DNA of 64,000 nt, from contig CM074187.1 in NCBI GenBank assembly GCA_037179385.1, positions 44,922,879-44,986,878 of the forward strand, given 5' to 3'. Positions 34,820-62,635 of this stretch are shown here, piece after piece (within the stretch, counting starts at the first letter, position 1; every line of letters starts with the position of its first letter). The notes beneath the pieces are model-generated. The model did no database searches, was not told the origin of the DNA, and was given only the letters and a program-made list of their open reading frames with translations. The stretch is from Holothuria scabra (Eukaryota; Echinodermata; Holothuroidea; Aspidochirotida; Holothuriidae). Made by a program: the position numbers and the translations under genes.

Positions 34820-34904
34820 TTGGTTTCGATTAAAAGAGAAACCTATGCAATCATGATGACGTGTGTGTGTATGTATGTGTGTATGTGGGTGTGTATGTGT
34901 GTGT
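34820..34904 (+). mobile_element. 5' part of DINE-like element A3 (split)
   Basis: GGTTTC...GAGAAACC hairpin (34822-34843), 'tatgcaatcatgatgacg', then a (TG)n tract that stops abruptly at 34904. The rest of the tract and the core continue at 58976. The LINE sequence on either side proves that the DINE inserted there. Confidence 0.8.
34893..34904 (+). repeat. Left 12-bp direct repeat GTATGTGTGTGT (candidate TSD)
   Basis: Identical to 58976-58987. Because it lies in a TG microsatellite, the match is suggestive only. Confidence 0.4.
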
Positions 34905-34920
34905 AAGCATAGGCCTTACA

Positions 34921-35220
34921 AGGTGGACATCCACATGTCACCAGAGCTTCCTGTGTGGACACAATATTTTGTGTGGACATACACCTGTCCACATAAGTAA
35001 AATGCTCTAAAAATGCCTATTTTATAAAAAAAAGCAATTTAGTACTATTTCAACAGAAGTCCACCTAGTAAGGTATGGAAGCGAAATATGTATAGTTAAT
35101 GTGCTCTGCTGCCCCCACTTGAGTGTAAGGGGTGTATGTGTATTGGACTCAATCCCAGACATATGTGTCATCTTACGTGGACATACATGTGTGGTTAGGC
35201 CTGTACAAGCTTCAGTGGAC
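34921..35220 (+). repeat. Left subterminal GTGGAC cluster
   Basis: GTGGAC occurs at about 34923, 34955, 34973, 35178 and 35214, most often as gtGTGGACA. GTCCAC occurs twice in the opposite sense (about 34987, 35058). The density is far above the roughly one per 4 kb per strand expected by chance. It mirrors the right-end array. Confidence 0.6.
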
Positions 35221-35309
35221 ATATCAGCCATTCACCAGCTACAGTGGTCACATGTACATCAACCTTGCTGGCATGCTGGTAATTTAAATTACTGCAGTAA
35301 CTTCAGGTA

Positions 35310-37560
35310 AGAGAACATGCAACTAAGATTCTCTTTAATTGTACAGAAAACTTTTTAAGATGGCCTCATCTTTCAGACTTTATACCTTATACATATTATG
35401 AGGAAGCTATCTGGGGATACTTCCTATGTACAACTGTTTAGCCTAAGTGTATGCACCTATACCAAATTGTGTGCAATACAGTATAGGCCTAACATGTGCT
35501 GAATTGTAGCCCTTAGCCTAACATGTATATTGTAAAGAAGCATGTGCTTTTGCACATGTTTACACAGTAGGAATTCAGTGAAGGATCCAAAACATTTGTA
35601 ACCTAGGGGTTGACCTTAAAAGGACAGATTTTTTAGCAGTGTTTTGCTTCAAAGGTGCATTTTGGTACATATATTGAAGAGTACACCAGCTGAGAGGAAT
35701 AACATGAGTACAAGTAACAGACAAATTTTTGGTACTGTTTCAAGTTCAAACCTGTGGACAATTCGTTGGATCCTGTATATATGCCTGAATGATGACATAG
35801 AGAGTACTCTGGCTTGGGGAATGACGTGGATGGTTCACACAGTTCAGGCATAGTATTTATCTACAATAAATTTGACTTTTACCGCATAAGGCAAAGAAGT
35901 TTGGAAGAAGGTGTTCCTGCTTTGTTTGCTACAGTTGATGAAATTAATTTGACATAAATGTATTATTGTTGTGATCTCAGCATTGTGTGTTTGTGGGCAC
36001 AAGGTAAGAGCTGTGTTCAAATGAAATGTTACATGTGCAAGTGCATCTAACTTAAAAAATATAATATAAGTGCTTACTTGCACCATTCTAGGCTTTGAAA
36101 TTTTGTTTGCATGGTCATAGAGCCACAACCGGGTGAGATTCAGCTCAAAAGATATGTACTAAAAGCCATGTTAGGTGTGAGAATTGTAGTATGGTACATG
36201 CATAATAGGCCATGAAGTTACCAAAATGGAAAATCCTGAAATTTGACTATGCTTAAATTTTGTTTTTTTTTTATATATTTTTTGAGAGTTAAAAACAAAT
36301 TTTTGACCCTAATTTTGATCCTTATTGCCTTTTGATCTTTATTAAATGTCAGTAAACCTAGGCCTTCAAGCACATGTGGAGGAAAGCAACTCAAGTTGCA
36401 TGCACAAATAAAAAATTGACTTGCATACGTTTCCCCTGTGCAGGCTTTATTTTGAACCTGGATAAGGGATGCATCATTCTTTAAAACAATTTTGTACAGA
36501 AGAAGAAAGATTGCTTTGAAAATAGGCCTAGTACACTCCCTTTGGGATCAACATGTTAATTGCTTTGAATTCAAACAGTGCTAGAGCAAAGACTTTGGTA
36601 GTTTGTATGAATGCTTGTAAAATATTTTAGTCTAACACTTACCTGAGAGGATGAACAAACATGAGGTAGACCTTGTTCCAAAAGGGAGGTTGGGAAAAGA
36701 CAATTTCAGGATTGTATAACAACCTTTTAGTGATACTGAATTTAGTGGGGTGTGCCTTTTAAGTTGGTGGAGGACAACCCCAGTGATTGTCTACAATTAA
36801 GGCCAATCTTCAGAAGCTAATAGCTATTGCAATATAAGTCTTTATAAGAGGCATAACATTTGGACACTGTTATTTCATCTCAGCTGATGTACTGCAGTAT
36901 TCTAGCTAGTGTTACAGCTATAGGCTCAAGTGTAAGCCTATATTGTGCTTAATCATTATTTATGTTACATGTGTTATTGTTATACTTTTTACAAGTTTGA
37001 TAGTTTTTCTTGGTTCAATATACTTAATTCAAATAGCTTAGCTTAAACAATGGTGTGTTTAACAATTACTTCAGAACCTCCATCATGTACACCTCAGGTT
37101 CACTTCACTTTGATTTATAAGTGAATTCTTTTGGTATCATTCCCTTAGTATACCTTTAGTGTACTGTATCTTTCTATAGCATCTACTCCTGTCTTGTAGT
37201 AAACACGGATTTCAAATATATCCATATCTTGTTATTCATGGTTCAGAGGTAAACATCCATCTATGGTAAATAGCTGCACAGTCACTGCATGATGTTTTAG
37301 ACCCCAGGTTACGAAAGAAGAGGCAAAGATATAGGACTACTCTATGCTAGTATCATTATTGGAACATTGCATGGGTGGGTATAACCATTTTAAAAAATAA
37401 GAATGGCAGTATATGTCTACCAAAGATAGGTAATTGTGAAATTTATGCTTCAAGTTAAAGTTCAAGATAGATTACTCATGGAGGCGGTATATCTGCTTTA
37501 AATGTACTAAAACTGCCACTATATACATTGCTAAGTGATTAATGCATGTTCCTTTTGCAG
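35310..37560 (+). other. 5' region of the 24-kb element; no coding exons recognised
   Basis: AT-rich sequence with no domain-bearing ORF. It would contain the promoter and any 5' UTR exon of the SET gene. The acceptor 'ccttttgcag' at 37560 shows that an upstream exon exists. Confidence 0.35.
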
Positions 37561-37574
37561 GCTGGAAGTTGACA

Positions 37575-40500
37575 ATGGGCCGTTCTTTGGTAAGTCCAAT
37601 GCTCTTTGCATACATCTGCCTTTTTCTCACCAGAATTTTGCTAGTTTAAAAGAACATGAAACCTGAAAGTATGAAGTTCTTTATGTAACTATCAAATGAA
37701 TTTTACATCAGTGAACTATACTCTCAGTAAGATGTCCATACTGGAGACAAAACCTTCCCATTTTCACTCATTATACATACTGTAAAAGAACTTGTCAAAT
37801 TGTTTTGAGTGTCATCCTGTTATCTGAAACAAGTAATAAAACAGAATAATAATAATTAAGTATCCAAAACATACAAGTCTTTTATGTTTTTGCTGAAATG
37901 ACCCAGCTCTTTCTGAAAATGCCATAATTCTTAGGCTGATATTTTTTTAATAGACACATGATGTTCTCTGAAAGGCCCAAAGAATTAAAAGAAAAAAATA
38001 TTTACACTTCAGCAATTCCTCTGTTGCTGTCACCTATTTTTAGCATTTCTGTTTTGCTGTTACACCCTATTTTGTAATGAAATACCAAAGTGGTGTGTTT
38101 GATTAAAATGTTATCATTGTTAAGTTTCAATGTGGACACATGCTGAGAATCATTGAGATATAGGAAAACTGGGAACATCGAACCTTGGGAACATTAAATA
38201 CTAGGAACATCGGGTAGACCCTCTGTAGAATCTAAAACTCAAGGCCTGCTTACTGTCCAAAAAAATCCCATCCCCATTCAACACATGGTCTCATAAATTG
38301 TCCTTGAATAGGACTGTGTATACTAAGTCCACTTTGTTTCCCTTTGCCCTAGCCAGTTAGCCACAACTGGAAAAAGACTGTGGCTGGCCCAACTTAAACC
38401 AATTGTAGTGTTTTCTGAAGGTGTAGTTTAAACACTCAAAAATAGGTATACTCAGCATTTTATAGAGAGCAAACCTCCAAAAGTCACATTGACATTGCCT
38501 GGGCTGATAGAGTCTGGTCTTTTTCGTTCTGTGATACCACATGGATGAGGTATATTGCATGTTTTAACTGAGCCAGTAGTGTAACTGTTCTTTGGATATG
38601 ATATCTAGTTGTGTGCGTACATTACCTGTACACCTTTCACAAATACTCCTCCTAATTAGGGAATAGAGCTCTTCATCAAGCCTTTAAGGTTCATTTGTTT
38701 TAATTCTTACACATCATTACCAATTTATTCATATTGATATAAATATAATGTGATGTGGAAAAATTACATGCAATGAAACTGTTGTCTTGAATTCCTAATT
38801 AAACAGAGACAGAGAACAGATCCAAAGTCAAGGGAGAAATTTGTGCAGTGGTTAAAGTCTGAAGATGATCCACCGGGACTAGAAGTTAAAACTGTTAATG
38901 ACTATGTTGGTAAGTATTGCACTACTTCAGCACCATTGAGGCATTTTTTGTATTATTGTGAACACTGGTCTATATATAACTGAATTCCTCTTTTGAGAAA
39001 AGCAGTTTTCAAAACATTTACTTACCTTTTGTTGCGTATGAAAACAATGAGTGAACTTGAATGAATGAATGAATGAATGAATGAATAAACGGACAGATGG
39101 AGGGACTGCGAAGCATTCTCTCTGAAGGGCACTGAGTTTGAACTTTCTGCTTGTCTAATCAGCATGCTATCAGTTAAATGATCCCATTTTACTAGCTCAC
39201 AGTTCACTTGGCAATGAGTAAACATCTATGCTATATCATTTTGACCCAACGGTTCTCACTAGAGAATTCCATATCAGGCATAACACAGCATGGGACAGAG
39301 GGACAGACAGAGAGGTGCATGAGTGAGATAGAAAGTGGTGTGTAAAAAGTAAATGCAAAAAAAAAAAATAAAATAAAAAATAAAAACCTGGAGTTAATTT
39401 TTACCATATTTTAAAGACATATATTCATCACCACAGATAGTTGCAGTTCCCAACTTAAACACTTCTACCACTCCCATAGGCTCTCTTCTAAAACATCCTT
39501 ATCCAGATACAATCCAAGTTTATTGCTTTTGTGCATATCCTGGTAAACATACAAAGCCCTGTTGTCTAATCAGAATATTTCAGTGCATACTTCATGTATG
39601 AAATCCAAGCTTTTCCCCTTTTTTTTTGGAATTTGATGTCAATCAAAGAGAGCTCTGTTCCAATTGAGAATTTTGGTAGACTCTAGGCAAAATTGTCCTT
39701 TGGGGTGACAAATGACTGACTTTAATATTGTTCTCTAATGTCAGTGCAGTGGATGAAATTGGGTTTATTGTTTATGACAAATGTATTATGAGCAGTCAGG
39801 ATTTAGTCATAGACATTTTCTCTGTTTCATAACATTGCAGAAAAGTAAACTTAAGTCATTACTTTTGTTTTTGTTGGCAATTTCACGATTGAGTATATCA
39901 GAAATCTACAGCAAGGTATAGAAATTTTGTGTCACTAAACTGATGTTGTTTTAAAGAAAACATAGGCCTATTTGTTGTGTAAAAGATAACATATTTGTCT
40001 TTGTATACCTGTTACTTATCCTCTGTTCAAAGTTCTTTGTGCTCCACATGCATACAGCATGAACCGTGTATTAATGCCTTATGCTAAATACCCCTATCAG
40101 AGCCATAAGCTGTCCTTTTATTTCAGGCCAGGGACTTTTTGCTGCTAAATCTTTTGCTCCTGGGGAGTTTGTCTGTGAATACAGAGGGGACTTAGTAACA
40201 TCTGAGGAGGCAAAAACTCGAGAAAAGAAGAACCCAAGAGTGAAGGACTTCATGTTTGGGTTTCGTCACAATGAAAAGCGATGGTGGTGAGAATGATACA
40301 TTTCATTGCATTGTTTTAATTAATAACTATTTGATTTGTATGTTAAAAAGCAAAATACATTGTTTCATTACATGGTGTCTTTCAGTTATACTTTGAACAT
40401 ACTTCAGGTTACAAAAAATAAATCACTTTTCTTTGTTTGTGTCTTTTCTACAGTATAGACGCATTTAACTCTTCAGCAAAAGCAAGGTTTGCAAATGATG

Positions 40501-40667
40501 GCATTAACGAAGAAGAAAATTTAACTGTAAAAAAGATTGTGTTGGAAAAACCACATCTTTGTTTATTTGCAAAGACACATATTTACATCGGTGATGAAAT
40601 GAGATACGATTATGGTTACACTGATGCAGAATGGAGAAAGGTTGGTGCAGTTGCCTACAATTCATGA
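37575..40667 (+). CDS. KMT5A-like SET-domain protein, four coding exons
   Basis: Exons 37575-37589, 38807-38909, 40127-40286 and 40454-40667 join in phase to a 163-residue protein. The start ATG follows a splice acceptor at 37560. The N-terminus is MGRSLRQRTDPKSREKFVQW. The SET domain runs from about residue 39: GQGLFAAKSF (SAM-binding GxG loop), FVCEYRGDL, a central FMFGFRHNEKRWWCIDA (compare the Y/WCVDA of KMT5A), KARFANDG, and DEMRYDYGY (the ELxYDYG catalytic end). KMT5A enzymes mono-methylate histone H4 Lys20. Here the canonical RLINHS box reads RFANDG: the Asn is kept but the usual His is Asp, so activity is uncertain. Exon 4 also has a possible donor (AAG|gttggt at 40641) before the stop, which would allow fusion to downstream exons. 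I could not find a matching phase-0 acceptor. Confidence 0.78.
38807..38909 (+). CDS. SET gene exon 2
   Basis: Acceptor aaacag (38806), donor gtaagt (38910). It reads RQRTDPKSREKFVQWLKSED then DPPGLEVKTVNDYV, leaving one base in phase 1. The peptide is charged and likely a linker before the SET fold. Confidence 0.7.
39055..39090 (+). repeat. (GAAT)n microsatellite
   Basis: About seven perfect tetranucleotide units in SET-gene intron 2, followed by 'aataaacgg'. Confidence 0.8.
40127..40286 (+). CDS. SET gene exon 3 (N-terminal half of SET domain)
   Basis: Acceptor 'tttatttcag' (40126), donor gtgaga (40287). Contains GQGLFAAKSFAPGEFVCEYR and GDLVTSEEAKTREKKNPRVK then DFMFGFRHNEKRW. Strongly KMT5A-like. 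Confidence 0.82.
40454..40667 (+). CDS. SET gene exon 4 (C-terminal half of SET domain, stop)
   Basis: Acceptor 'cttttctacag' (40453). Together with the last two bases of exon 3 it gives CIDAFNSSAKARFANDGINE, then KPHLCLFAKTHIYIGDEMRY and DYGYTDAEWRKVGAVAYNS and stop. GDEMRYDYGY is the final SET motif. The protein ends soon after it and I see no CXCXC post-SET cysteines, as in KMT5A. Confidence 0.8.
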
Positions 40668-42505: not shown

Positions 42506-42532
42506 GTGTGAAATTTGGAAGAAAAAGAAACA

Positions 42533-42788
42533 ATGTATGATGCAAATCTGTTGCATGATGAAAGGTTTGTTTGGAATATGTTGCAAACTAATGAGGAAAG
42601 TGCAATTTTTTTATTTCTACACCCAGACAATGAAATGAGTGAAAGCAATGATGACAGAAATTTAATCCAGGGACAAGACATTGAAAGCAATGACTTAGAT
42701 TGTATAAAAAGTACAAATGGAGAGAGAGCAGGCACACCTAGCATCGATCTAGTAACCCATGCAGATAATGACTCAGATGAGGGTAAAG
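42533..42788 (+). CDS. Recombinase gene, first recognised exon (acidic linker A1)
   Basis: ATG at 42533 follows an in-frame TGA (42509). Reads MYDANLLHDERFVWNMLQTN and on through NEMSESNDDRNLIQGQDIES to HADNDSDEGK, donor gtatga (42789) in phase 1. No fold is recognised; Asp/Glu/Ser-rich. Confidence 0.5.
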
Positions 42789-45700
42789 GTATGAATATTG
42801 CTGATCTTCAATATTTTTACTGAAGGTAGTGATGAACCTTCTAACAATTCTGTTACAGAAATGCATCATCTTGCTACAAAACACTGTATATCAGTCTGTC
42901 TCAATGACTATCACAAGAATCTAACATCTGTCTTCTCATCAGACTTGATGTTTATAGGTCATGGTCACTGCTTATTTATGAATTACTCATTTTAAAAACA
43001 TTGGTATACCATAGAACTAGTAGAATCTTACCTATATGGTTGTTTGTTTACATTGCTTTGAGGTCCCACTGCCACCCTGTTAATAAACATAAGGTGGTCC
43101 AGGCTTGAGAGAATGTACAATTAAAAGTAAATGTAACCCATATGTTCAGTGGTGGGTAGAATTAAGTTTTCCTGTTTTGTCTACAGACAAGGAAGAAGAA
43201 GACCCCTTACATTACTATAGAAGTCCATGGAAGAGACAGTTTAGTGAGAGTGAGGATAGCATTGTGATGGGTAGCATGGATAGTGATGAGGGGGGCAGAC
43301 TTGTTCATTTGGAGTTTTCCAAGCCCAACAACGTGGTGGAAAGCACTGATTCAACAAAAAATGCAGATGAGGGAATGGATGATGAAGGTATGTTTTGTTC
43401 AAATACTTATCTTTAAAACAGACAATGTTTCTAATTTAGCCATAGATATCAAACCACTTACAGCAGGGACAACTTCCAGTTTGTCTTGAACCAGTTGGTT
43501 GGAAACTGGGCTGTAAAACACTATCTAACTAACTACAGTTTGTCTGAGGGACTATCACAAGAATCTTAGCTCCATCAATCATCTTTTCATCAAATTTGAT
43601 GTTTCGGTCTTGGCAACTGCTTACTTGTACAAACCTACTTGTAAAAACATTGGTATGATACAGACCTAGTAGCTAGAATCTTAATTATTTGGCTTTTGTT
43701 TACATTGTTTTGGGGTCCCACTGCCACCCCGGTAATAAACATAAGGTGGTCCAGGTGTGAGAGAACGTACAAAAGTAAATGTAACCCGTGTTCAGTAAGT
43801 AGTGTGTAGAGTTCATTTTTTTTGTCTTGTCCACAGACAAGGAAGTAGAAGATGCCCCACATGATTGTAGAAATCCTCGGAAGAGACAGTTAAGTGAGAG
43901 TGAGGATAGCATTGTGTCGGGTAGTGTTGATAGTGATGAGGGGACAGACTTGTTCGTTTGGAGATTTCCAAGCCCTGTAAGATGGTTGCCAGCACTGATC
44001 CAACAAAAAATGCAGATGACACAGTGGATGATGAAGGTATGGTTTATCCCTTTATGCTAAATCTTCAAAGCAGTTCATTGAGTTGGTGCATGAAATTCAA
44101 CAAATTGTTCCAAACCTGTTAAGTTTTATTCATATATCAATGACAAATGGTCAAACTTTAATAATCTCCATATCCTACTTACCAACAATTGTTTTTAAGT
44201 GAGTTCTTTATGATTCAATTCCATTTTCTAATATTTCTGACCAGGCACTTTTTCAAATTATGCACAAAACTGTTTCAAGTCAGGACACGTTAAAATTCAA
44301 AATGTAAACCTTCCTTAGCTATTGTGCATGAAACTTGACTCATTATGCGAACTATAAGCATTGTCATGTCATATTGACCCTTTAACACTGTCATGCATTA
44401 AGTTTTTGTTATCTCCTCAGTGGGCCCCTTTAATAACAGTCAGTGCTTTTCATTTAGTCATATAGGTACCAAACTACTTAGAGCAGGGAAAACTCAACTG
44501 TTTGAAGGTCTTTGTAGTCATCAGGGTCACTGTCTGTGTTTGATCATTTGTAATTATTATGTGAAGAAAAGTTAACAAGTTTGGAAATTGTTTTAGATTT
44601 CATGAACCAACTCAATGAGCCCTTTTAATAACCTTTCTTGCCATTACTAATAATGAACCTTTCTTTTTTAACTTTGTAACGTTATATTTTGTTAAAGAGT
44701 ATGTTATGAATAATGACCACATGCCCAGTGACCCCTACAGGCCTATGACTAAATAAACTTATGAAAAGTGGAGTATACAAGTCTCTGTATATCAATCATG
44801 GGACATTTTATTCCAAAGTTAGTATGCTCTAAATGTAATTGTGATGTTTACTTAATGGGACAGTCACAGGGCATTTAGTTCTGCTTCTTCTGTACAAACA
44901 TACATTATTTGGTGGATGATAGTGTAGTAACTGTACATTTTGTTGAAGACAACCTTGTCAACTGGAAATCATACTCTATTCCACCAAGTAAAAGCAAAAA
45001 AGATTCACTGTTTGATATTGGTCCTTTTTTGTATTATTGAGATTTTGATCTACCATTGGTATTACAATTGAACATGGGGGACATGTTATTATGTGCAAAT
45101 ATTCAGAAAAGATATGCAAAAATGTGACCAATGTAGCAAATGGTAAAAGAATGTTAGGTGAGCTGTAGGAAATGTGAATCTGTTACAATGTTAAAATTGT
45201 CTTTTAACTAATTACCTTCTAGAAGTGGATAACAGTGATATGGAAGATATCAGTGATGAAGAGTATCATCCAAATAAAAGACAGAATAGAGGGAGCAAGA
45301 AGACGTCGAGTCATGAAGATAGCGATTATGGATCCGGATTGGATTGTATGGATGAGCCAACAAACCATGCCAGTGGCAGAATGGATAATGAAGGTACATA
45401 TTTTCATTCAAATACTCGTCAGAGTAACTGTCAGTGGTAATTGAAGACATCAAACCCAACATGATGCAATCCCCTAACTTACATTCTTAAACTTTTGTTG
45501 GGGATGATTACATAATAAAACATTGACAGCAGTATTGTAAAGTTTATTTCTGCTGTACAAGACTGTAGGTAATCTGATGGTTGGAGGTCTTTGATGATAA
45601 TAGCATTTGATGGGGTTGTTTTCTTTGTACCGCAATACAGTTGTATACTATCCTGTTTGTGACTTTGTTTCAAGTGCATTTTTTCCACACATTGCGTACA

Positions 45701-48700
45701 TTTGCGCATGCTATAGGTGTACATTATATCTGCTCTCTTGTATTTTCAGCATCCAAAGTTGGTGTTTCAGTCTGTTCCAACCAAGCTACCAGAATTTATG
45801 ACAACGTCCATGCTTGTCTCTTCTGTGACAAAATGATTTCCTGCAAAATGAAAAGACATATGATCTTGATGCACAATGAAGAAAGAGAAGTTAAAGTTGC
45901 CATGACATTACCTACCAAACAACATCAGCAAGCAGCTTTTGATAGGTTGAGATTAAGAGGCAACCATTTGTACAATGTAAAAGCTTTGCAGACAGGCCAA
46001 GGAAAACTTCTTGTAATGAGAAGACCAAAAAGGGACTGAGCATCAAACAGATCAGTACTTGCCCTGTCCGGGTTGTTTGGGCTATGTGTACAAAAAAGAT
46101 TTATGGAAACACCGCCAAGTCTGCTTGGCCCCCAGTGAAGAAAAAGCTGGTAGCCATGGGAAGAAACATGTGGCAGAAAGCAGGCAAGTTCTATCTGCAT
46201 CTTTAAACCCTAAAACAGCAAACACTCTCTTGCATAAGAAAGTTTTCTCAGTGATGGTTAATGATTCCATAAAGCTGGTTGCAAAAAATGATCCATTGAT
46301 CTGTGCCTTCGGAGATAGCATTTTGAGTAGAGTTGGATGTACAAAGTCCACTTACGTGAGCTGTAAAATGAGGGAGGTTGCACGGTTACTGTTGTCGCTG
46401 CGTGAAGCAGATTCTGAAATAAACAGTTTGCAAGATGCAATCGACCCAAGCAAGTTTGGTACAGTTATTAACTGTGTTAAGGCAGTTTGTAAGTACTCTA
46501 TGACAGAGGAAAGTGCAAATGGAATGTTCCAGACTCCATCTTTGGCCTTAAAGTTAGGATACAGCTTGAAATCCTGTGCTTCATTGTTGAAAGCCAAAGC
46601 AGTTGCCAGCATGGACAGTGTTACCATAGATAAGGTTGACAAATACTTGTTTTTGCATGAGTGCAAGCAGACAGGGTTTTCTGTTCAAATTTCAAGCCCA
46701 GCTTTGAAAACCATGTATGTGAACAAAGAATCACATGTAGAACTTTTACCAGTGGCGAACGATCTCTTACGGCTTCGAAAATACCTTGAAGATGAAATCC
46801 AGAAGAACTACATCAGACTTGTGACTGAAGTTGAAGATGAGGCATATCTTGCTTTGCTCCATAGTACTGCAGCAAGGTTGATTTTGTTTAACAAACGCAG
46901 GGGTGGAGAAGCCATGAGACTCAAGATCACAAGTTACAAGAATCGACCAGATTGGGACTGTGAGGACATAACCCATTCCCTTTCGACTATGGAGAAAGAG
47001 CTCCATAAAAGGTATGTTTGAACATGAGTAATTTCTGTGACTGTCAAACTTTACAAAAGAATCAGCTGGATAGTAAGAGAATATACTGAAGGAGGCTGCT
47101 TTGGGGGACAGGGCACACTGCACGAATTAAAGCATTTGTTGTTTTTATCTTCTAAAAAGTTTTTCCAAGCAATCTATCTCTACTCCTTGATATTTGGCCT
47201 CTGACTGCAAACTTGAAAAGGATTGTCCTATAATTTCTATCATCAGACAATCTTTCTTGTGACCTCCCTGTTCTATCATGTTTTGGCAGTATACACATGT
47301 AATGTGTGATGTTCTGAAGTTTCTATGCTATACTAAGGGGTAGGACCAGGATTTACTTGACTACTCTGTAATGCTTCCCAAAAGTTACAGGAAGCACTGA
47401 CACAGATGATAATTGTTCAAGAAAATGTGAAATGCAAAATGTTCAGTGCTTTAAAATTTTTGGCACTCTTTAAAAAATTAAAGTTTGAAAATGCAGAAGC
47501 TCTACTGAAGGAAATATCGATATTTGGGTTTTTTCCAAGAAAGTTGAAAAATTTGGGGTCTTCTTTCTAAAAAGAATATATGCTCATCTTATAAGCAACA
47601 AGGTCACGATCATTAGGGCAACAGAAAGTTGTTTGGAGTACATATTTTATCATTATTAGTGACAATAAACAAGTCGTCATGTTGTTACCCTTATGCTGTT
47701 CTGTTCACATCAATGACCTTCACATAGTTTACTTTACATGCCCACCACAATGCCTGCTTTAGTATTTGCTATTTTAACAAACCATGATGTCCACACAGGC
47801 TTGTCTTATTCTGTAAATACATTTGTCTAGTTATGTTGTTAGAATCTGATAGTTGCTTTGATACTTAGGGTTTCGTGATTTTATACACATTTCAAAAAAT
47901 GTTGATTCTTATTGTAAAAACAACCAACCTAAAATTCAAGAGGTCAGCAGCTAGAAAGGTTAAGTCAGAATTGAATTGCCCACATACTTGTGCGGTAATG
48001 TGACACACTTTTGTATGTACTCACATCCACCCACGAAACATTTTTCATCACCTCCAGTTTATATAGTATGTGTACAGAATATCCACATGGAATAATGAAC
48101 AATATTTCACAGATGATATTTGGGTTTCAATGGAAACATCCATACAAGCTTTACCAGGGGGTTAACTAAACCCTTTCTCCTACAAAGTAACTTGTACCAT
48201 TTGTTGCAAATGTGTCTGTGCCTTTCTATCTATATAATGTATTTGGAAAGAATTAAGCTCTGCACTTATTATGTATTGACCTGTTAGATTCATATTTAGC
48301 TTATACAGATTTATGCAATTTTTTTCTCTTTGGGGGGGGGGCGGGGTCATTATTATTGGGGTGAGTTGGAGTATAATGACATGGCGTAATTGATTGTGTA
48401 GACTGCTTTCACCTGACATTACAAGTGGTAAGTGACTGCCACTGTCTGGCAAAATTCAACAGCCTGTTTTAGTTCACATGTGGTTAGTCAACTGCTTCTC
48501 ATATCAGTTAAAGGTACACTAGTTAGTATAGACTAGTTTTTGACTGTCAAAAGGGGTGGGACTTGTTACATCATTGAAAGCACTCTATATGACAAGTCCA
48601 TATTGTAGAAGTGATCAAAGTTGTAGAGTGCAAACACCTTGCTTTGAACATGCATTTTAGATGTTAATTCATTTGGGGTGGAGTGAAATTACAGATACCT

Positions 48701-51700
48701 TGGATGAAACAGGAAACCCTTTCAGAAACGTGAAAAGCATGTCTATAGTAGATTTATTATAGTCACATGATGCAAGACACTTTAACATGCCAGGTTGTGA
48801 TTTCTTTTCAGCTAATTACATTATCAGCAAATCTTCAGTGATGGTAAAGAATAAACCATTGGAACTTTGTCATTGCATGTCCACACTATCATTGAATAAC
48901 CCCATAATGTTGTGCTTGCACTGTATCAAGTATCAGTTGTTGTGTATTAAAATGTCTTTCAATGTGATGTCCACACAAGCTGCAAGTATAACATATTCCA
49001 TTTGTAAACATCTTCCTTTACAATGTCCACACTTGTTGCTGTAGTAGTGAAGAATCCTCAATCATACCATTCACAATTTACACAACTTATTCGTGTACAA
49101 TGTGGAAGGTTCTTGCCCCTGTTATGTATGGTGTCCACACTAACCCCTTACACATTAAACATTTTATGTTATTGCCAATGATGTCCACAGATTCATGTGT
49201 GCAACCCACATTTTAAGAAATTGTCTGATTTGTTTCAAGGTTAATTTCAGATGTGCTGTTGGGTTGTTGGATTGTACCTAGTACATCTAGGGACAATGAA
49301 GACGGTTCCTTACTTATATTTATAAGTTAGATTACCATAAAGAAGTGAAAGTATGATCATAGTTTATAATAACCCATACATGGTTGCTATATATTTTGTG
49401 TAGTTGCTTGTATAAACACTTACCCTGTTTCCTGTTTTCCCATGTTGTCACTTTTATGTTAATGTGATTTGATTTACGGTTTCTAAGGAGAATCAAAACT
49501 TGATCCCTAAAATTTGGCCAAAAAGTAACTTTTTTTGCATTTTTTACCCATATTTCTCCAAATATTTAAAAATGGGGATGAAGCAAGGTGCCCTGTCTTG
49601 AATGTGATTTAAGACATTATATGACATTTTTACAGTGGCATGCTATAGCCTTGGTCTGCTCAGCCTCTACAATGACATCATTGTCAGTCTTATATCACAT
49701 TAAAGACCAGGACACCCTCACATGTATCCCCTTAATGAAAAAGCTCTGTTACAAAAAATTGTGGATGTAATTTAAATTTCTACTTGCTTTGATTTGTTGC
49801 AGGTTAGATATGGTGAAAACACCAGGAAAGAGGGGACGTATGGTCCCAATCCTTCTCACTTCAGAAGTAAAGAGAGCTATTGATTTGCTTCTCGAAACAC
49901 GTGAAGAAGTGAACATCAACCCCCTAAATCAGTATGTCTTTGCCATGGGTGGACAATCATTGCAGTGTCTGAGAGGGTGGGATGTTATGCATGCAGCAGC
50001 AGTGAATGCTGGTCTTGAACATCCAGATCTTATAACCAGCACAAAACTGAGAAAGTATACGTGGCAACAGTTTCACAGATACTGGACCTGAATGAAAACG
50101 AGCTTGAATGGCTGGCATCACACATGGGGCACTCTATCAAAGTCCATCGGCAGTTTTATAGACTTCAATCTTCAGTTCTAGAAATGGCTAAAGTAGGAAA
50201 ACTCCTATGTGCTGTTGACAATGGAGAAGTCCACAAATTTTCCAACAAGACTCTGGCAGATATTACTTTGTCAGGTTTGTTGTCTATGAAATCTTTTGTT
50301 TTCCACTATGATGTGTGGATCAGCATCTTTACTAAATTAGGCTTTGAGACAGGAAAGTTTTTTTGAGAGAGTATCAGTAATCATCAGGATTTCTTGAAGA
50401 GGGCAGTTCACCAATACACCTTTTAAAGATTTGAAAAGTCTGCCAAGGCCACTTCTTAAAGTCTTTCACTGGAACTGAATCCATATTGCACATGGTGCAT
50501 AACCAGTTCAGTGAGATATTGCAATCATGACTTTGTATATGCAATCTGTATGCATCGTACTAGAATAAATAAGCTAATTCCCTGTTATAAAACTATTTCC
50601 AAGTAGTAAGGGAAAAATTTTGTATCTTCTGCCATTAAGACTGATGCTGATGTGTTTTGGTATTAAACTTACCCTTTAACATGCAGGGGTTGCATCAAGA
50701 CATAGATTTGACCAAGTATATTTGAATAGAGCTGTGTAAGTGACAGCTAAAATCGATTTGTCACAGTCCGGCAATCCATGCACAAGGATATGTATAGTGC
50801 AAGCTTAAAACCAGGCCATCCGGGTCCATTAAGAGGGTGTTACATGACTGCAGTACAGTAGGGTAACTTGCACACTTTTGAGTTTTGATAGGCAGAGTGT
50901 GTCATGTACATTTCACACAAGGTACATCATTTTCCAGAGAAATCTCGGCACATGTCTGTTGAGGGATTGGGCCTGGTGCTGGGAAGAGGTAATTTTGCCT
51001 CTTATTTTGCCACCTTCAGCATTGATGTAGTTCTTCATACTCATTTTACCTTACCTCAACCTGAACCAAACTCCTGTCCAAGCCCTGTGCCCCTTTCCAA
51101 TCTCACAAAAACCATTTTCCCTAGATATTGGGAAAATTCCCAAGGACTTACAGTAGTGTAGATGATACTGCTTGTGCATATTGCAGAATTGACAATGCAC
51201 CATGCACAGCATTGTGGCTGTTACTCTGAAATACACTACTGAGAGAGGGTATAGAAGTATGGTTTAAATTGCAAAGGAATAAAATAAATCACTCCTTAGA
51301 AGTTTGCTTGCTCAACTCACAATGGTGTGATATTTTGGTAACAAAAGGGTACTAATGTTGGGTATCCAAACAGGAAAATTTGGTGTGATAGAGTCAACAA
51401 GAAATTAGCGATTAAAGAGCTCTACATGAATAGAACATTTTCTCACTTATCTAATATTGCTTCATCTATAGAAGGCCTATTATTATTATACTGTATTATT
51501 GCTTCAAAAGTGCTGAAGAAGAAGAAGAATAAACAGACTGTGTATCTTTCTGAAAAATCACTTAATTCTTGCAATACCCAATAGAAATACCCAGTGTTGA
51601 AGAAGAAGAAGATGATGATGATGAAACAGTTGAAGAAGCCATTGTGGAAAAAGACAAAGAGGAAGATGGCAGGGAAGTAAAGGAGAGGGAAGATTCAGAT

Positions 51701-54600
51701 GTTGAAAGCACAGGTACTTTCATGTCAATTCACAAATATGGAACCCAAAGAGTCTGTTTTTCAGATTTAAAATCTGATGTGGTGGGTGGTCTCTAGTTTT
51801 ATGACAGTAAGTGACTGTAAACCTGTGACTTATGAATGACAGCCCCACATCAGGTGACAACCAACTCAACAAATTATATCAAATGTAGTATGTTTTGAAA
51901 GGCTGTCCAGATTTTAAGTGAAAAGAATTCTGTCTAGAAGAAGTTCATATTTTACAAATATGAAAGTCTGGAATATTGATTGAAATGTTTATAAAGATTT
52001 GATTATGAATGTAGGGTGATTATTTGATATCCCCATGTACAGATCTTTTCAAAGGATTTCTGATACTCAGCTTACACCTTAGTAAGAGAACATTCAGTCA
52101 GAATACCAATGTTTTGCCCTATAGATGACTTAGAAGTCACTTCAGTCTTTATTAATTTAAGTTTTAATATCAACTCAGTATTTACTGCTTTGTCTTAAAA
52201 CTGTTGCATAACTGCAATTAGACATAATGCTTCATAGAGTATGTAGACTAAAATTAGTTTGAAAAACACCACTGAGCCTGAAATACAATATCAAATGCTT
52301 TGCTCTTGACAAATTGATACTGCTTTAAAGCTGTGTTCATTGCTATTAATGATCAATTCTTGCTTGATACATTTTCATTGGATATGTGATTAATGCAGCC
52401 TTGTAACACTTAAGGTGCGTGCAAGAAGAAACATTGCAAACTTGATTTTTGTTGATAAAATATATACCGTGAAGGTAGGATTAAGATTCAAAAGTCTGCA
52501 ATGACACATATAATCGTTCATATTTCAACAGTTTCCTCTTTTTTCATTAACAGTTAAAGTTTCAGCCCCAGTGAATGTAATGAAGAAAACGGTATGACAT
52601 TCATTTTATTGTAAATCATGCAACTCAATCAAAAAGTGTTTTTTTGCAACAAGATGCTAGGCCATTTCTTCTTACAGCAAGAGTTTGATTGATTTTGTTG
52701 GTTTTGTTAATTTTTAACTGGAACAAGAGCTTATGTTCACTTGAAAATCTTGTGACTGCAGTAGACCTAGATTGTGCATAATTCCTTTCCCAGGGATGTA
52801 ATCCTAGGGGGAAAATTATCAGTCTACTCCCTCTTCATGCAAAGCGATAAAAGGCATGGGCATTTTACAAAAATAATTTTTTACAGGGGGATGGGGAGGG
52901 GAGGTTGACGTGTGTGAATAGTGGTAGTTTTCCCATAGACCATCTGTAAAGTAGCATCCCACTATTCTTGAAACAAAGCAGTCATTATTTGGCACTTAAG
53001 TTTGCAATATCAGAAAATGGACAACCTATGATAATAAAATGATCACAAAATTAGGTCTACCAGATCAAGAGTACAGCTAACGTTGACCATGGATTAATTA
53101 TAATTTTAGGTATTAAGCTCAATGTTGGAAAAAGGTTGAATGCATTGTCATTTCATAAATTATCACTAAGATTATTCTGTCATGAGTGAGATTGGTTGTT
53201 ATACTGACTTCTGTGGTGGGGTGCGTGCAACCATCAGTTTATGGGGAGTGTCCCACCAGAGGGATTTGTTTGCCAAAAATGCCTCCAGATTGCAGGAAAT
53301 GGCAATTGCAGTGCCTAATTACTGCATGCCTTAAAGTGCTATTTTCAATTTCATGCTCTGGGAATTTTCAAGGAAACACTTAGAGGCCAGTCCACACGTA
53401 TGTGTTGCTGACCAATTAAAATGGTATACATCCTAATAATAGATATGAAATCAAATAGAAATGTAAATGAGGGAATTATTTATCCTTGGGACTATGATTT
53501 TATTGCTGTTTATGAGCAGTGTACCATCCAGAAGTGCATCAATGAACATAGCCTCAAGAACATGATATTTAAAGGAACTTTAAAAAGTTATTTGATACTC
53601 CATTTGAAATCTCCAACAAAGACCTAGGAGACTAATGAAACCTTTGACAGCACTTACACAAATTGTATTGCATGAATTACTTCATGCGTATATGTGAGTT
53701 TTATCAGATTGGTGTTGAAATTCTTTCCTAGAAATGATTGGGTGTAATATAAGCAAGAAATCCTCATCTGCATGGCAAATTGTTTGCTTTTTGAGTAGAA
53801 CATTATGGGGGTTGGGGATATTGCATGAGAAACTGAAGTTTTATAGTGAGAGCTAGATGTTACACCACGATGCATGACTACCACACTGAATGCATGAGAA
53901 CTGATGCCCTTAACAATAGTAAATTAAAGTAACCATGTAATTTGTGTTAATATTTTTCAAAAAGGGCTAAATTTATATAGTACCTTAACATGTGCAGGGT
54001 TTTCAAATGCATTTTCGGACAAAGTTACTGGACCCCACCCCCCATGGGTGTAATGCCTCTGATTAAAAGAAAATCTGGCAACAGTTAGTCACCCCAATGT
54101 TATGCTTGATCTTGATTTTTGGATTGACAGGTTCTGTTTTAAAATCTCTAAAAATTTGAAATCTGCTCAATAAAACTCAGTTTTTTTAACAGATTTTCGA
54201 CAAAATTTTTTCATATGTTCTGTAATGCAATCTCCACATTTTCAGAATTTTATAAAAAAAAGAGCCTGCCTTTGTTGAGAGATATAGGGATGTTGAATGA
54301 ATTCCATTCCATTTCATGTAGCAGAATGTCATTAATCTTTGTCAGTTTAGTATTTTAATACTTGAAGAATAATTTTTATTTCTTCAATTACAGTGTCAAA
54401 GAGTGCCATGGACATCTGAAGAAAAGAAAAGATTATGGGAAGCATTTGGTAAATTTATTAAAGCCAACACAGTGCCTGGAAAAGCTGACATTGAGAGTGT
54501 GATGAACGTCACAAATGAATTCGATAAGAGATCATGGAAAAATGTCAAAGATGCTGTAAGAAACATCATTACAAAATTAAATAAGCATATGAATCCCTAG
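42533..54600 (+). CDS. Zinc finger / tyrosine recombinase / Myb-like protein, multi-exon, frame broken in two places
   Basis: Model: 42533-42788, 43187-43387, (43837-44036 skipped), 45223-45393, 45750-47011, 49803-50274, 51585-51713, 52554-52591 and 54394-54600. All junctions match in phase and the total is about 840 codons. Order: acidic Ser/Asp/Glu-rich linkers; C2H2 finger (CLFCDKMISC...RHMILMH); C2HC finger (CPGC...HRQVC); recombinase core-binding region; catalytic region with RRGGE, TKLRK, GHSIKVHRQFY (R, R, H, Y boxes); acidic linker; Myb/SANT-like domain. One base too many in an A5 run (46027-46031) and a net two-base excess at TATA (50056-50059) break the frame; everything else is open. 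Tyrosine recombinases cut and rejoin DNA via the Tyr, and the Myb and zinc fingers likely bind DNA. The start Met is uncertain: the first exon may instead be spliced from the SET gene. Confidence 0.68.
43187..43387 (+). CDS. Recombinase gene, acidic linker exon A2
   Basis: Acceptor 'tgtctacag' (43186), donor gtatgt (43388), symmetric phase 1-1 exon of 201 bases: DKEEEDPLHYYRSPWKRQFS, ESEDSIVMGSMDSDEGG and so on to GMDDEG. 'SESEDSIV' is a plausible CK2-type phosphorylation segment (inference). Duplicated about 650 bp downstream. Confidence 0.6.
43837..44036 (+). pseudogene. Duplicated linker exon A2' with 1-bp deletion
   Basis: Acceptor 'cttgtccacag' and donor gtatgg are conserved and the first 36 codons mirror A2 (DKEVEDAPHDCRNPRKRQLS). 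GGGGGC in A2 is GGG plus A in this copy, one base shorter, so the frame is lost and the exon is 200 bases. If included it would destroy the downstream frame; skipping keeps the frame because neighbours are phase 1-1. It is the product of a tandem duplication. Confidence 0.65.
44066..44436 (+). mobile_element. MITE family C, copy in recombinase-gene intron
   Basis: 'gttcattgagttggtgcatg', 'gcacaaaactgtttcaagtc', 'tataagcattgtcatgtcat' and a right end near 'gggcccctttaa' match 28750-29107. More diverged. Confidence 0.6.
44437..45222 (+). other. Intron of recombinase gene, no feature beyond a solo repeat end
   Basis: 'gaaccaactcaatgagccct' near 44604-44625 is a solitary end resembling family C. 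Otherwise unique. Confidence 0.35.
45223..45393 (+). CDS. Recombinase gene, acidic linker exon A3
   Basis: Acceptor 'attaccttctag', donor gtacat. Symmetric phase 1-1, 171 bases: EVDNSDMEDISDEEYHPNKR, QNRGSKKTSSHEDSDYGSGL, DCMDEPTNHASGRMDNEG. Contains a basic NKRQNRGSKK patch that could serve as nuclear localisation signal (inference). The ending DNEG parallels DDEG of A2, hinting at descent from one ancestral exon. Confidence 0.6.
45750..47011 (+). CDS. Recombinase gene, main exon: C2H2 finger, C2HC finger, recombinase N-terminal and first catalytic box
   Basis: Acceptor 'tgtattttcag' (45749), donor gtatgt (47012). Reading starts ASKVGVSVCSNQATRIYDNV, then HACLFCDKMISCKMKRHMIL (finger 1, C-x2-C-x10-H-x4-H) and LRLRGNHLYNVKALQTGQGK. 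It stops at TGA 46037 in the first frame. The next frame carries CPGCLGYVYKKDLWKHRQVC (finger 2), a helical stretch with PSLALKLGYSLKSCASLLKA, SSPALKTMYVNKES and ARLILFNKRRGGEAMRLKI. The second Arg of RRGGE is the likely box-I catalytic Arg. Removing one A from the A5 run at 46027-46031 would restore one frame. The family pattern (VKAL..G.G.L(I/L)..RRP before CP.C) spans the join, so the shift is within a conserved region. Confidence 0.75.
47012..49802 (+). other. Large intron of recombinase gene with internal GTCCAC cluster
   Basis: No coding sequence recognised. GTCCAC words lie at about 47790 and between 48870 and 49190. A G-run with GC follows at 48332-48346. The ORFs at 48180-48452 and 48787-49044 are unsupported. 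Confidence 0.4.
48870..49190 (+). repeat. Internal GTCCAC cluster
   Basis: GTCCAC at about 48878, 48970, 49026, 49133 and 49184, mostly as TGTCCACACT. Same orientation and context as the right-end array. It could be a relict terminus of a nested or older copy. Confidence 0.5.
49803..50274 (+). CDS. Recombinase gene, catalytic exon (R, H and Y boxes) with frameshift
   Basis: Acceptor 'atttgttgcag' (49802), donor gtttgt (50275). First frame: LDMVKTPGKRGRMVPILLTS, ...VNINPLNQYVFAMGGQSLQC, ...DLITSTKLRKY. After TATA (50056-50059) the second frame continues VATVSQILDLNENELEWLAS, HMGHSIKVHRQFYRLQSSVL, EMAKVGKLLCAVDNGEVHKF. LRK supplies the second catalytic Arg, GH the His, and FY the nucleophilic Tyr. 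The block 'KLRK(H/Y)VAT(L/V)SQ' is continuous in relatives known to me, so the net two-base excess (a TA duplication is the simplest explanation) is a lesion or sequencing error, not a domain boundary. Confidence 0.78.
50275..51584 (+). other. Intron of recombinase gene, no feature
   Basis: Small ORFs at 50904-51236 on both strands are unsupported. AT-rich unique sequence. Confidence 0.35.
51585..51713 (+). CDS. Recombinase gene, acidic exon L
   Basis: Acceptor 'taccccaatag'-like at 51584 and donor gtactt (51714). It reads EIPSVEEEEDDDDETVEEAI then VEKDKEEDGREVKEREDSDV and EST. Highly acidic, phase 1-1, likely a flexible or chromatin-facing linker. Confidence 0.6.
52554..52591 (+). CDS. Recombinase gene, 38-bp microexon
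   Basis: Acceptor 'tttcattaacag' (52553), donor gtatga (52592). Adds VKVSAPVNVMKKT and changes phase from 1 to 0, which is exactly what the last exon needs. The phase fit is the main evidence. Confidence 0.5.
52592..54393 (+). other. Last intron of recombinase gene, no feature
   Basis: Unique AT-rich sequence with a GGGGA-rich patch at 52885-52905. ORFs at 53186-53884 are unsupported. Confidence 0.35.
54394..54600 (+). CDS. Recombinase gene, terminal exon: Myb/SANT-like domain
   Basis: Acceptor 'ttcttcaattacag' (54393), phase 0, 68 codons and TAG: CQRVPWTSEEKKRLWEAFGK, FIKANTVPGKADIESVMNVT, NEFDKRSWKNVKDAVRNIIT, KLNKHMNP. The spacing W-EE-(L/V)..F..(F/Y)I..(N/G)..PGK.(D/E)(C/I)E...R.W..VK..V+N.I resembles the C-terminal Myb/SANT-like module common in this protein family. 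It is a helix-turn-helix that probably recognises element DNA; GTGGAC motifs are an attractive but untested target. Confidence 0.72.
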   Translation, partial: CQRVPWTSEEKKRLWEAFGKFIKANTVPGKADIESVMNVTNEFDKRSWKNVKDAVRNIITKLNKHMNP

Positions 54601-54796
54601 ATTTCAAAATTTGTGTCATGTTCCTTTACTCTTCAAGGTTCTAGGCTTGTGCAAAACTTTGATAAAGGCAGAAAGATGCTGTAAGAAACATCATTACAAA
54701 ATTAAATAAGCAGAAGAATCCTTAGATTTCAAAATTTGTGTCATGTTCCTTTACTCTTCAAGGTTCTAGGCTTGTGCAAAACTTTGATAAAGGGGG
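54547..54796 (+). repeat. 125-bp tandem duplication across the stop codon and 3' UTR
   Basis: 54547-54671 and 54672-54796 are almost identical, starting with 'aaagatgctgtaagaaacat' and ending 'gcaaaactttgataaagg'. The second unit repeats the coding tail (DAVRNIITKLNK) behind the real stop. Confidence 0.85.
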
Positions 54797-54989
54797 AAAG
54801 GAAGGAAAAATTAGCCGAAGGAATTTATGGAGAGTGATTAAGAGTGCAACTAGCTTCATTTTTATTTTCAAATGTAAAAAAAGAATCAGTAGTGATGTAA
54901 AAAGGAATCTTAGACTTCATATCTTAATGAAAAGAACAAGAAAGTAGCTTAAAGTCTAATCCATGTAAGTCTGTTAAAGAGACACATCA

Positions 54990-56630: not shown

Positions 56631-58395
56631 TATATTTAACAGTTCTACAACCATGTTAGGAGCTCTTCTTGATTCTGCTGTACATTTCAACAGTAAGGGA
56701 CTATGAATTCAAGAGGTGGTTAGAATGTTGGAAACACTGTAGTGTCATTTTCAGAAACAAAATTCAGTTTTGCTGACAAAGTTTGCAAAAATATTGCAAA
56801 CTCAGTTACCTTAAGCACACTGGAAGGCAGAACAAAGAGAAATTTTGAAGATGGTATCCAACATTTTTCAAGAAGATTGAGCCTGATTTTTTTTTCTCCA
56901 AATTATAACTTTTAAAGTTTTTTGTCTTACTTTCATTATAAATAGAAACAGGGCAAAACTAGACATATTAAAAGCCAGAATATTCATTTCTATAGTTCTG
57001 CAGGTTCAAAAGAGTCCCCCAATACAATAAAAACTTCATAGCCACTACTATAGCACCTAATCATGTCAGGCATAAGATAGAAATTGCCAAACATGCTGTC
57101 ATGAAATGAATGAAATTCTGAAGGGAACTATCAGATATATTTTCCAAAGTCACCTCAATTGAGTGTGCATTGAAAGGTTAGTTTCATGAATACCTTGTAT
57201 AGATAACAATTTTGGGTCTGGAAAAACAATTTCATCACCCTTTTGGTCAATAGACCTAGTCTTTGGTGTCAGATGTATTCCTTTTAACTTGTTATATGAT
57301 TGGAGCAAGTGTTTACATGATACATAGAGAAAATTGTTGGTGTCACAAACATTTTGCCAAAGATATATCTTACCAGCAAGAGTTGTTTTAGAGTAACTAA
57401 ATGCTATGCTCATTATAATAAAGAAGAAAATTTATCTGCTGTTGACCCTTTGTTTATATCATTAACTACAGTGCAGAATATTCGAGTAGTACCTTACAAG
57501 CAGGTGTATGTACAATTGCACCATCTTTATCATCTTATTTGTACTTACCTGAGGTAATTTACGTACATATTCCCAAATATCCAGTTGATCAGATGTTACA
57601 CTGCAGTATTTTCTTGTTTATGGTTGTTGTTGTTGTTGTTCTTGTTGGACTGTTTTGTTCAATATGAAGTTCAAAAGTGTTAAATAAAATTTTTCTGATG
57701 ACCAAGAGAATTGTATCACTTTCCTTTGTGTTTTTGTCAAAAAGCAATGTCATTGAATAGGATATCGCCATTGCTAACTAATATTCTTCCATGCTTCTCA
57801 ATGTGCAGGAACCACAGAGATGGCACTTTTTCTGGTGTAGGCATTTTGGGCCACCTAATATTGAGATAATATTGCTGAACCTACTGAGCCACTTTGGTTT
57901 GGATTAGCTCCCAGACTTCTAAATTGCTCCTTGGGCCCAGAAGTAGTGGTTCAAATGCAGGGGCTATTAACAAAGATAACTTTCGTTTGAGCTTCAGAGT
58001 TGTTGAAATCTCCTAAAGCCATGGTGACACATACAAAGTCAAGCTGTATGGAGGAGCTCTGCACCATGTTGGTCCACACCTGATACTAAAGAAAACAGTG
58101 CATGTTGTTTTGAGGTTTTGAGACAGTTGCACAAGCTGCAACTGCTCACACTGTTGGATAGTGCACATACATTTTATTTATGTTGTATGTCTTTATGAAC
58201 TGTAAGTTGTTTCCCTGACTATCACATTAGAAAGTTGCTTGCAGTTCTTAAGCTGGCCTAAATAAACTATGGGTGCTGAAATTATTTGTCAGTCATTAAG
58301 AAGGATCAAAGGAATTTTGAATATAAAACGGAAGAGTAGCATTTTGAAGGAATCAACTGCAAGTTAACTGGGAGTGTCCCACTCCATTTCACTCC
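56631..58395 (+). other. 3' region of the 24-kb element; no coding exons recognised
   Basis: Contains a (GTT)n tract (57622-57645). ORFs at 57150-57557 are unsupported. One GTCCAC at about 58072. Confidence 0.35.
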
Positions 58396-58960
58396 ACTCT
58401 ATTACAATAACACATGTCCACACATTTGCCACTAAGATGTCCACTTGTGGTTTCTACACTGTGATGTCCACATCAATATGTAACACTGGGGAAGTCCACT
58501 AAGGGTTGTTACACTCGGCTGTCCACTTATTGTTGCTACACTATGATGTCCACATCAATATGTAACACTGGGGAAGTCCACTTTTGTTTGTTACACTCAG
58601 ATGTCCACATATTGTTTCTACACTAAGATGTCCACATCAATATGTAACACTGGGGAAGTCCACTAAGGGTTGTTACACTGTGATGTCCACTTGTGGTGTT
58701 TACACTTGAATGTCCACATAGGATTGTTACCATGTAAAGTCCACTTACATGTGTGCTAACTTAACCAACTTTTCATGTGTAAGTCCACACAAACCAGTTT
58801 GTAAAGTTACTAATAATTAAAACAGTAAGGTATTTTCAGCATAAAAAGTGAGATGTATAGCATACTAATACCTCATATAATAATTGTGAAGAATTTTAGG
58901 ACTTGGGCTTCATGGGAAGGCAATGTCCACCTAGTAAGCTTCTGTGACTGAGTCCACCTA
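58396..58960 (+). repeat. Right subterminal GTCCAC array (16 copies, ~27-bp spacing)
   Basis: From 58415 to 58957 the word GTCCAC occurs 16 times, in a pattern like 'gatgtccacatcaatatgta' plus 'acactggggaagtccact' (three near-identical double units of about 81 bp), alternating with 'ttgttacact'. All are in one orientation, opposite to the left end. Typical of clustered recognition sites, by analogy to subterminal motifs of known transposons. Confidence 0.75.
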
Positions 58961-58975
58961 AACTAGCGCATGCTT
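58952..58975 (-). repeat. Right terminal inverted repeat of the 24-kb element
   Basis: Reverse complement reads AAGCAT-N10-AGGTGGAC, the same 24-base length as 34905-34928, with 16 of 24 bases identical, including all of the outer 6 and inner 8. Confidence 0.55.
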
Positions 58976-60469: not shown

Positions 60470-60540
60470 TTCTGGTATATAACTTGTAGGATGTCAGAAT
60501 GGACCTTTATAAGTAAAGCAGTTTCAGTGCTATGATATCT
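60470..60540 (-). mobile_element. LINE copy 1, continuation after the nested insertions
   Basis: 'ctggtatataacttgtagga' and 'tgtcagaatgga.ctt', 'agtaaagcagtttcagtgct' match LINE copy 2 at 61039-61110, which has no interruption there. It is the missing upstream piece of the LINE broken at 34819. Confidence 0.75.
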
Positions 60541-62561: not shown

Positions 62562-62635
62562 GTAAGATTAACATATGGAGTTTTCCTCAGTCTTTACTGT
62601 CTATTCAATTACATAGCCATGACATCAAGGTTATC

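Follow-up and report, generated by a model that had tools for sequence, protein, structure and literature searches.

A 24-kb element bounded by short inverted ends, which carries a SET-domain gene and a tyrosine recombinase gene on the same strand, lies within a 64,000-nucleotide stretch of the genome of the sea cucumber Holothuria scabra (GenBank assembly GCA_037179385.1, contig CM074187.1). We refer to this whole stretch as the window; it corresponds to C9:44,922,879-44,986,878 in the 1.19-Gb assembly of 31 contigs that we searched. A preliminary description of the window, made from its letters, had proposed that the segment is a single transposable unit. Our own evidence is sequence comparison throughout; it is from such comparison that we infer transposition and propose that the element may act through methylation. 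The features of the locus are collected in Table 1.

Table 1. Features of the Holothuria scabra element and its surroundings (positions of the window).
Feature	Position	Strand	Remarks
Uninterrupted insertion-site paralog, same window	4602..4810	+	
Interrupted host TG tract, left half	34861..34904	+	
Whole element, family A copy on C9	34905..58975	+	24,071 bp; same end points on C1 and C8
Left terminal inverted repeat AAGCAT	34905..34910	+	Identical in 10/10 mapped copies of families A and B
First subterminal box AGGTGGAC	34921..34928	+	Offset 17, in register with the right end
Left subterminal group, 7 GTGGAC/GTCCAC boxes	34923..35220	.	Element positions 19, 51, 69, 83, 155, 273, 311
SET gene, exon ahead of the SET domain	38807..38909	+	AG/GT borders; homologue also present at 8 family B loci without a recombinase
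SET gene, first SET-domain exon	40127..40286	+	Pfam SET; splice borders
SET gene, last exon, YDYG and stop	40454..40667	+	Pfam SET on the spliced peptide
Recombinase gene, candidate acidic N-terminal exons	42512..45437	+	Weak: open frames, none above a Pfam cut-off
Recombinase, two CxxC-H zinc fingers, core-binding region, box I arginine (NKRRGGE)	45788..47011	+	Start approximate; frame-breaking indel
Recombinase, catalytic exon (GKRGR, LRKY, HMGH, FYR)	49803..50274	+	Frame-breaking indel
Recombinase, acidic linker exon	51585..51713	+	In frame behind the catalytic exon
Recombinase, C-terminal Myb-like exon with stop	54394..54600	+	At least one linking exon before it not resolved
Right subterminal GTCCAC group	58416..58957	.	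Mostly within a 27/82-bp tandem array
Right-end first subterminal box GTCCACCT	58952..58959	-	Offset 17
Right terminal inverted repeat ATGCTT	58970..58975	-	Identical in 10/10 mapped copies of families A and B
Right half of the host TG tract, starting GTATG	58976..59016	+	

Ends, copies and insertion sites

The two ends of the element agree in register, with AAGCAT at element positions 1-6 and AGGTGGAC at 17-24. The left AAGCAT-N10-AGGTGGAC (34905-34928) is mirrored on the right by GTCCACCT-N10-ATGCTT (58952-58975), the first and last bases being exact. This arrangement, already noted in the preliminary description, also bounds two copies of 24.8-24.9 kb and seven shorter ones. Further inverted similarity had been noted just inside the ends, and we found it to reside in GTGGAC/GTCCAC boxes. 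No other 6-mer is as strongly enriched in the termini (about 33-fold over the interior): it occurs 23 times in the terminal 350 + 600 bp and 16 times in the remaining 23,121 bp.

When the left end (396 bp) was used as a query against the genome, it matched at least 11 places, three of them at 99-100% identity and eight at 79-81%. The right end (476 bp) matched the same three places at 100% and at least ten more at 75-82% (17 overlapping rows). Among these listed matches, which are lower bounds, all 11 left ends have a same-strand right end 9.9-24.9 kb away, and 11 of the 13 right ends are paired with a left end, the two unpaired ones (on C7 and C6) being 75-78% identical to the query. The other copies that the preliminary description had suggested looking for were found with the same ends on C1, on C8 and in diverged places.

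Ten copies were compared as wholes: the window copy, both of its sisters, and all but one of the eight diverged pairs. The sister copies measure 24,822 and 24,862 bp, lie on other chromosomes (C1 and C8) and form with the window copy what we call family A. Each aligns to the window copy in two long collinear blocks (99.7-99.8% identity for C1, 98.9-99.3% for C8), and about 720 bp common to both sisters are absent from the window copy. Outside the borders the flanks differ among the ten copies. Because a unit of 24-25 kb with identical ends recurs on two other chromosomes, we consider the segment 34905-58975 to be a discrete element, very likely a transposon. The diverged copies, family B, have both ends as in family A, and the seven that we mapped are 9.9-14.5 kb long. 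The three of these seven compared for content keep, besides the ends, the first exon of the SET gene and the Myb exon; that SET-gene exon was found at eight family B loci in all, and none of the family B places was matched in any of our genome searches for the recombinase. To judge from this content, family B looks like a non-autonomous derivative.

A further family, C, was located through its recombinase. It was mapped by comparison of two copies, of 20,519 and 20,504 bp, whose left sides agree at 99.4% and whose right sides agree at 98.9%. The inverted ends, GCGTTTCTGG, are exact over 10 bp, CGGGGA stands at positions 18-23, and GGGATA and GGGGAT are some 12 times as dense in the terminal 600 + 900 bp as in the 10.7 kb of interior that were compared. 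At the level of the letters compared, family C repeats the plan of family A, that is an inverted end, an inner box at the same offset and a TG tract, in other letters.

The preliminary description had read the TG repeats on either side of the element as the two halves of one interrupted tract in a single repeat element, and the alignments agree with this. Joined together, the flanks align across the junction to the uninterrupted paralog at 4602-4810 (78.9% over 228 columns). Unbroken copies of the host repeat, TG tract included, number 776 + 778 in the genome, against 0 for a reversed-pattern control. Since the flanks align to this paralog and the repeat has so many intact copies, we take the landing site of the window copy to be a high-copy repeat. 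A TG-rich tract surrounds all ten mapped copies of families A and B, whose surroundings otherwise differ from copy to copy, and GTATG opens the right flank in all ten. We also scored 16 bp on each side of three A, seven B and two C copies, allowing at most two mismatches to (TG)n, the right flank of family C being scored 8 bp farther outwards, beyond GTATAGGT. Both sides passed in 10 of the 12 copies and one side in the other two, while the background in the window outside the element, on both strands, was 21 of 79,532 positions. The eighth family B copy, on C4, has a TG tract at its left end as well, followed there by two additional A.

A 12-bp direct repeat outside the element had likewise been reported. 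The repeat is present, but GTATGTGTGTGT, found on both sides, is ordinary sequence of an intact TG tract and so constitutes no evidence of a target duplication. We rejected such a duplication as unprovable: a short one is not demonstrable here because a core repeat of 5-8 bp would be invisible inside a microsatellite.

Tandem arrays with units of 145-156 bp, each adjoining a TG tract, occur in the window at 4602-6213, 26530-28189, 32530-33452, 59099-60267 and 62600-63483. Genome-wide, one type of this host repeat holds 1,554 intact TG tracts and acts as a landing platform for the elements.

Could the long copies simply be segmental duplications of a host locus in which a SET gene lies beside the degenerate pseudogene of a recombinase? 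There are just three near-identical long copies, and the recombinase of the window copy is frameshifted, as this explanation would have it. However, homology ends at the inverted ends while the flanks beyond differ, ten mapped copies of varied lengths share the same two end points and TG tracts, and family C has the same anatomy in other letters, so that we regard segmental duplication as extremely improbable. The proposal of a single transposable unit is supported instead, the window copy being one of three near-identical dispersed copies within a large and diverse family.

Several other repeats were observed in and around these copies. The family B copy on C1 (L028-L029) contains, at element positions ~10253-11430, frames that by eye resemble the reverse transcriptase of a long interspersed nuclear element and probably belong to a nested retrotransposon. 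Reverse-transcriptase-like fragments, again seen by eye, flank both ends of the window copy (33993-34433 and 60530-61487, both on the minus strand) and are probably ordinary regional repeats. At C5:16978290-16984631 (L020, L021) a recombinase fragment of 83-85% identity is split in two, with about 6 kb between the pieces, and is probably what remains of an old element similar to family A. No match was found in Rfam.

The SET and recombinase genes

The SET frame is open through three exons to the stop, with AG/GT borders; an upstream start was not found. The spliced peptide matches the Pfam SET model with an E value of 1.7e-14, and its best match in the PDB is KMT5A (E 8.7e-13), EZH1 being close (1.2e-11). 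KMT5A acts on H4K20. The KMT5A type proposed earlier for this gene is thus the best of the matches, with EZH1 near it, and we predict that the protein, apparently closest to KMT5A, is a histone-modifying enzyme. Of 14 SET loci of the genome, nine have YDYG and three FDYG. Beyond the host, a homologue search returned one short relative only (10 candidates).

Recombinase homology spans ~45,780-47,015 and 49,800-50,280. The frame of the window copy is broken by two small indels, and in one sister copy the zinc-finger/core, catalytic and acidic exons join without a stop. An acidic N-terminus is present also in one recombinase relative (P0034). Between the acidic exon and the Myb exon at least one joining exon is needed, and it was not found. 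In an alignment of five members of the catalytic region, the motifs NKRRGGE, GKxxRKV, STxLRKY, HxGH and H...YR are invariant, and they are recognisable in the frames of the window. The residues R, K, (H/K)xxR, H and Y of the tyrosine recombinase set follow in order; the usual H of HxxR is absent and its R is present. A structure model of a recombinase relative matches XerH, XerD and Cre, with a core-binding and a catalytic fold. Taken together, the conserved residues and the modelled fold of this relative support the identity of the protein as a tyrosine recombinase.

The Myb exon is matched by 35 of 152 retrieved proteins (E <= 1e-3), is C-terminal in those tails that we inspected, and is carried by family C as well (E 5.6e-12); by this comparison, the Myb-like exon is part of the recombinase protein. 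The zinc finger/tyrosine recombinase/Myb-like protein of the preliminary description is supported by the residues, the fold of the relative and this family membership. A direct duplication of 125 bp (54547-54800, 96%) takes in the end of the Myb exon.

Our Pfam scan covered 30 of the 183 frames of at least 45 amino acids in and just around the element. Among these 30 a SET exon alone passes a cut-off; none of them matched a Pfam recombinase model, and no reverse transcriptase, DDE transposase or viral core gene was found among them. In the 14 relatives scanned, the recombinase part likewise stays below the Pfam cut-offs, with no match to DUF3504 and none to DUF3435 (4 + 10 relatives), although the silence of a hidden Markov model is not proof. 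Four relatives compared with PHROGs gave one weak match, of unknown function.

Recurrence of the gene pair

Genome searches with the catalytic exon yielded 64 recombinase matches out of 118 candidates scored, and those with the SET peptide 57 out of 119, which merged into 47 loci. At 25 of the 47 SET loci a recombinase follows within 45 kb, downstream and in the same strand, where 0.06 would be expected, and at one locus the nearby recombinase is in the wrong strand or order only. Seen from the other gene, 26 of the 64 recombinase matches have a SET match upstream. The pairs are scattered over many chromosomes, their spacing is family-specific (~7.7, 9-10, 15-20 or 25-37 kb), and ten of the pairs, out of 14 sampled, differ from one another in both genes, which makes at least ten diverged families. 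Of the SET loci, 22 are without a partner: eight belong to the recombinase-less derivatives of family B and 14 are unexplained, among them C3:42029931, by eye an ordinary SET/post-SET gene, which we counted as a miss.

Same-strand recombinase matches about 55 kb apart occur at C14:40364515 and 40419709 and at C1:62976920 and 63032035, and are possibly tandem copies of larger families. The pair on C14 is accompanied by two SET matches at equal spacing.

The SET protein may have a role in the life of the element, but the gene could also be a passenger, that is a captured host gene carried along without aiding a transposition driven by the recombinase. Several results weigh against the first view and favour the second. 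No SET gene was detectable at 38 of the 64 recombinase matches, and at 12 of the 14 SET loci N-D replaces the N-H of the NHS motif, which is kept in two. The mirror-tree comparison, made with 13 fetched pairs and the window pair (L078 and L079, SET genes without a recombinase, were left out), gave r = 0.62, a value reached in 0 of 20,000 permutations, but near-identical copies account for it. Among ten non-redundant families r fell to -0.14, so that the distances of the SET gene and those of the recombinase do not run parallel between families, and long-term co-inheritance of the two genes is not supported by this comparison. The incongruence may reflect partner exchange, saturation or an alignment that is too short. 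On the other hand, SET genes are retained in families whose recombinases are ~40-62% identical to that of the window copy, [YF]DYG is kept at 12 of 14 loci, and order and strand are kept in 25 of 26 close pairs. On balance we consider it rather unlikely that the SET gene is a mere passenger.

Relatives of the recombinase are widespread. The nearest named one, with 52% identity, comes from another sea cucumber, Holothuria leucospilota. A first search returned barnacle, coral and sea cucumber sequences, and a profile search at least 324 relatives at E <= 1e-10 (7,995 candidates scored), mostly labelled with terms such as 'uncharacterized protein'; named sources among the 120 relatives listed include stony and soft corals, a sea anemone, beetles and bivalves, with Acropora, Dendronephthya, Diabrotica and Pecten among the genera. 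In P0048 the recombinase relative shares one predicted protein with a C48 (Ulp1) peptidase (4e-19) and in P0116 with a piece of an arginine methyltransferase (1.2e-26). These sequences may hint at other chromatin or SUMO partners, or else may be joins made in gene prediction.

Endogenous nimaviruses share with the element an animal host, a tyrosine recombinase with a zinc-binding domain and insertion into simple repeats. A C2H2 domain is typical of majaniviral recombinases, and nimaviruses associated with telomeres have a simple repeat as their insertion site (PMC10871703). On these grounds the element could be the remnant of an integrated large DNA virus. Nimaviruses are, however, large viral genomes, whereas the scanned frames of the sea cucumber element held no viral gene and nothing but the SET exon above a Pfam cut-off. 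Furthermore, a pattern search of IMG/VR (alignment A2) gave 69 matches with no relative among them, and the element resembles DNA transposons in its short inverted ends, its subterminal arrays and its deletion derivatives. A viral origin thus appears very improbable.

Proposed mechanism and relation to known elements

The reading that we prefer, with a probability of about three in four, is that of a 24-kb animal DNA transposon whose zinc finger-recombinase-Myb protein is predicted to bind the end boxes, to cut the element out and to rejoin it into (TG)n, while the SET protein would act as a chromatin modifier. A circle model is known for tyrosine-recombinase transposons. On this model, inverted ends and inner boxes would both be bound by the recombinase, the element would be excised as a circle joined at its inverted repeats (ATGCTT-spacer-AAGCAT), and the circle would exchange strands with a core in the TG tract. 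Either the zinc fingers or the Myb domain would read the family-specific subterminal box, GTGGAC here and a GGGGATA-like one in family C, and the shorter recombinase-less derivatives would be mobilised in trans. We propose this recombinase part because of the enzyme class and the anatomy of the element, and repeat-specific insertion has its closest precedent in the nimaviral recombinases (PMC10871703). The SET protein may methylate a histone at the element or at its landing site and thereby spare the element from host silencing; the closest precedent for such a step is given by the SET genes of HarbingerS and MuDR (PMC12730594). Within the mechanism this SET step is the weakest and least certain part.

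The preliminary description had likened the element to the Starships of Pezizomycotina. In a Starship the captain is the first gene at one end, whereas here the SET gene separates the left end from the recombinase, and 4.4 kb extend beyond the Myb exon. The sea cucumber element also differs in its animal host, in the lack of a DUF3435 match in the relatives scanned and in having one recurrent partner in place of variable cargo. The resemblance in scale and gene logic holds, since both are large elements led by a tyrosine recombinase and carry extra genes, but membership among the Starships is not supported. With the animal Cryptons (groups CryptonA and CryptonI) the element shares its probable nature of a DNA transposon with a tyrosine recombinase and non-autonomous derivatives. 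Animal Cryptons are described as being without terminal repeats and without a C-terminal domain (PMC3212892), in contrast to the inverted ends (6 bp in family A, 10 bp in family C), subterminal arrays, C-terminal Myb domain, SET gene and length of 20-25 kb found here.

Transposons with epigenetic enzymes of their own form another comparison. Harbinger and MuDR transposases are of the DDE type, unlike the tyrosine recombinase of the sea cucumber element, which moreover has an animal and not an oomycete host. What is shared is a SET histone methyltransferase gene inside a DNA transposon, SET genes having been incorporated in HarbingerS and MuDR transposons of Phytophthora (PMC12730594). The same source describes fungal TET/JBP DNA transposons, for which an element-encoded epigenetic enzyme and an escape from silencing were proposed (PMC12730594); there the enzyme is a dioxygenase, in other transposon families and in fungi, whereas here it is a SET protein in an animal. 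SET-bearing transposons (in oomycetes) and tyrosine-recombinase transposons (Cryptons, Starships) are known separately. In the literature that we searched, which did not include bioRxiv and most subscription journals, no tyrosine-recombinase transposon with a SET gene is described, nor did we find there an animal element with terminal inverted repeats and this gene pair, in keeping with the preliminary description, whose author knew of none.

A wider proposal is that of a so far undescribed, animal-wide superfamily of giant tyrosine-recombinase transposons, with an obligate histone lysine methyltransferase of their own, family-specific end boxes read by zinc fingers or Myb domains, a safe harbour in TG microsatellites and chromatin writing against silencing. 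We put it forward tentatively, at somewhat less than an even chance. If it is true, these elements would be to animals what Starships are to fungi, and would bring an epigenetic weapon of their own. The tyrosine recombinase class is now tied, in an animal, to elements of 20-25 kb that have inverted ends, give rise to deletion derivatives and repeatedly carry a SET gene. A recombinase that integrates into TG tracts could serve as a tool, and a working SET enzyme would make it directly testable whether transposons of animals encode histone modifiers for themselves.

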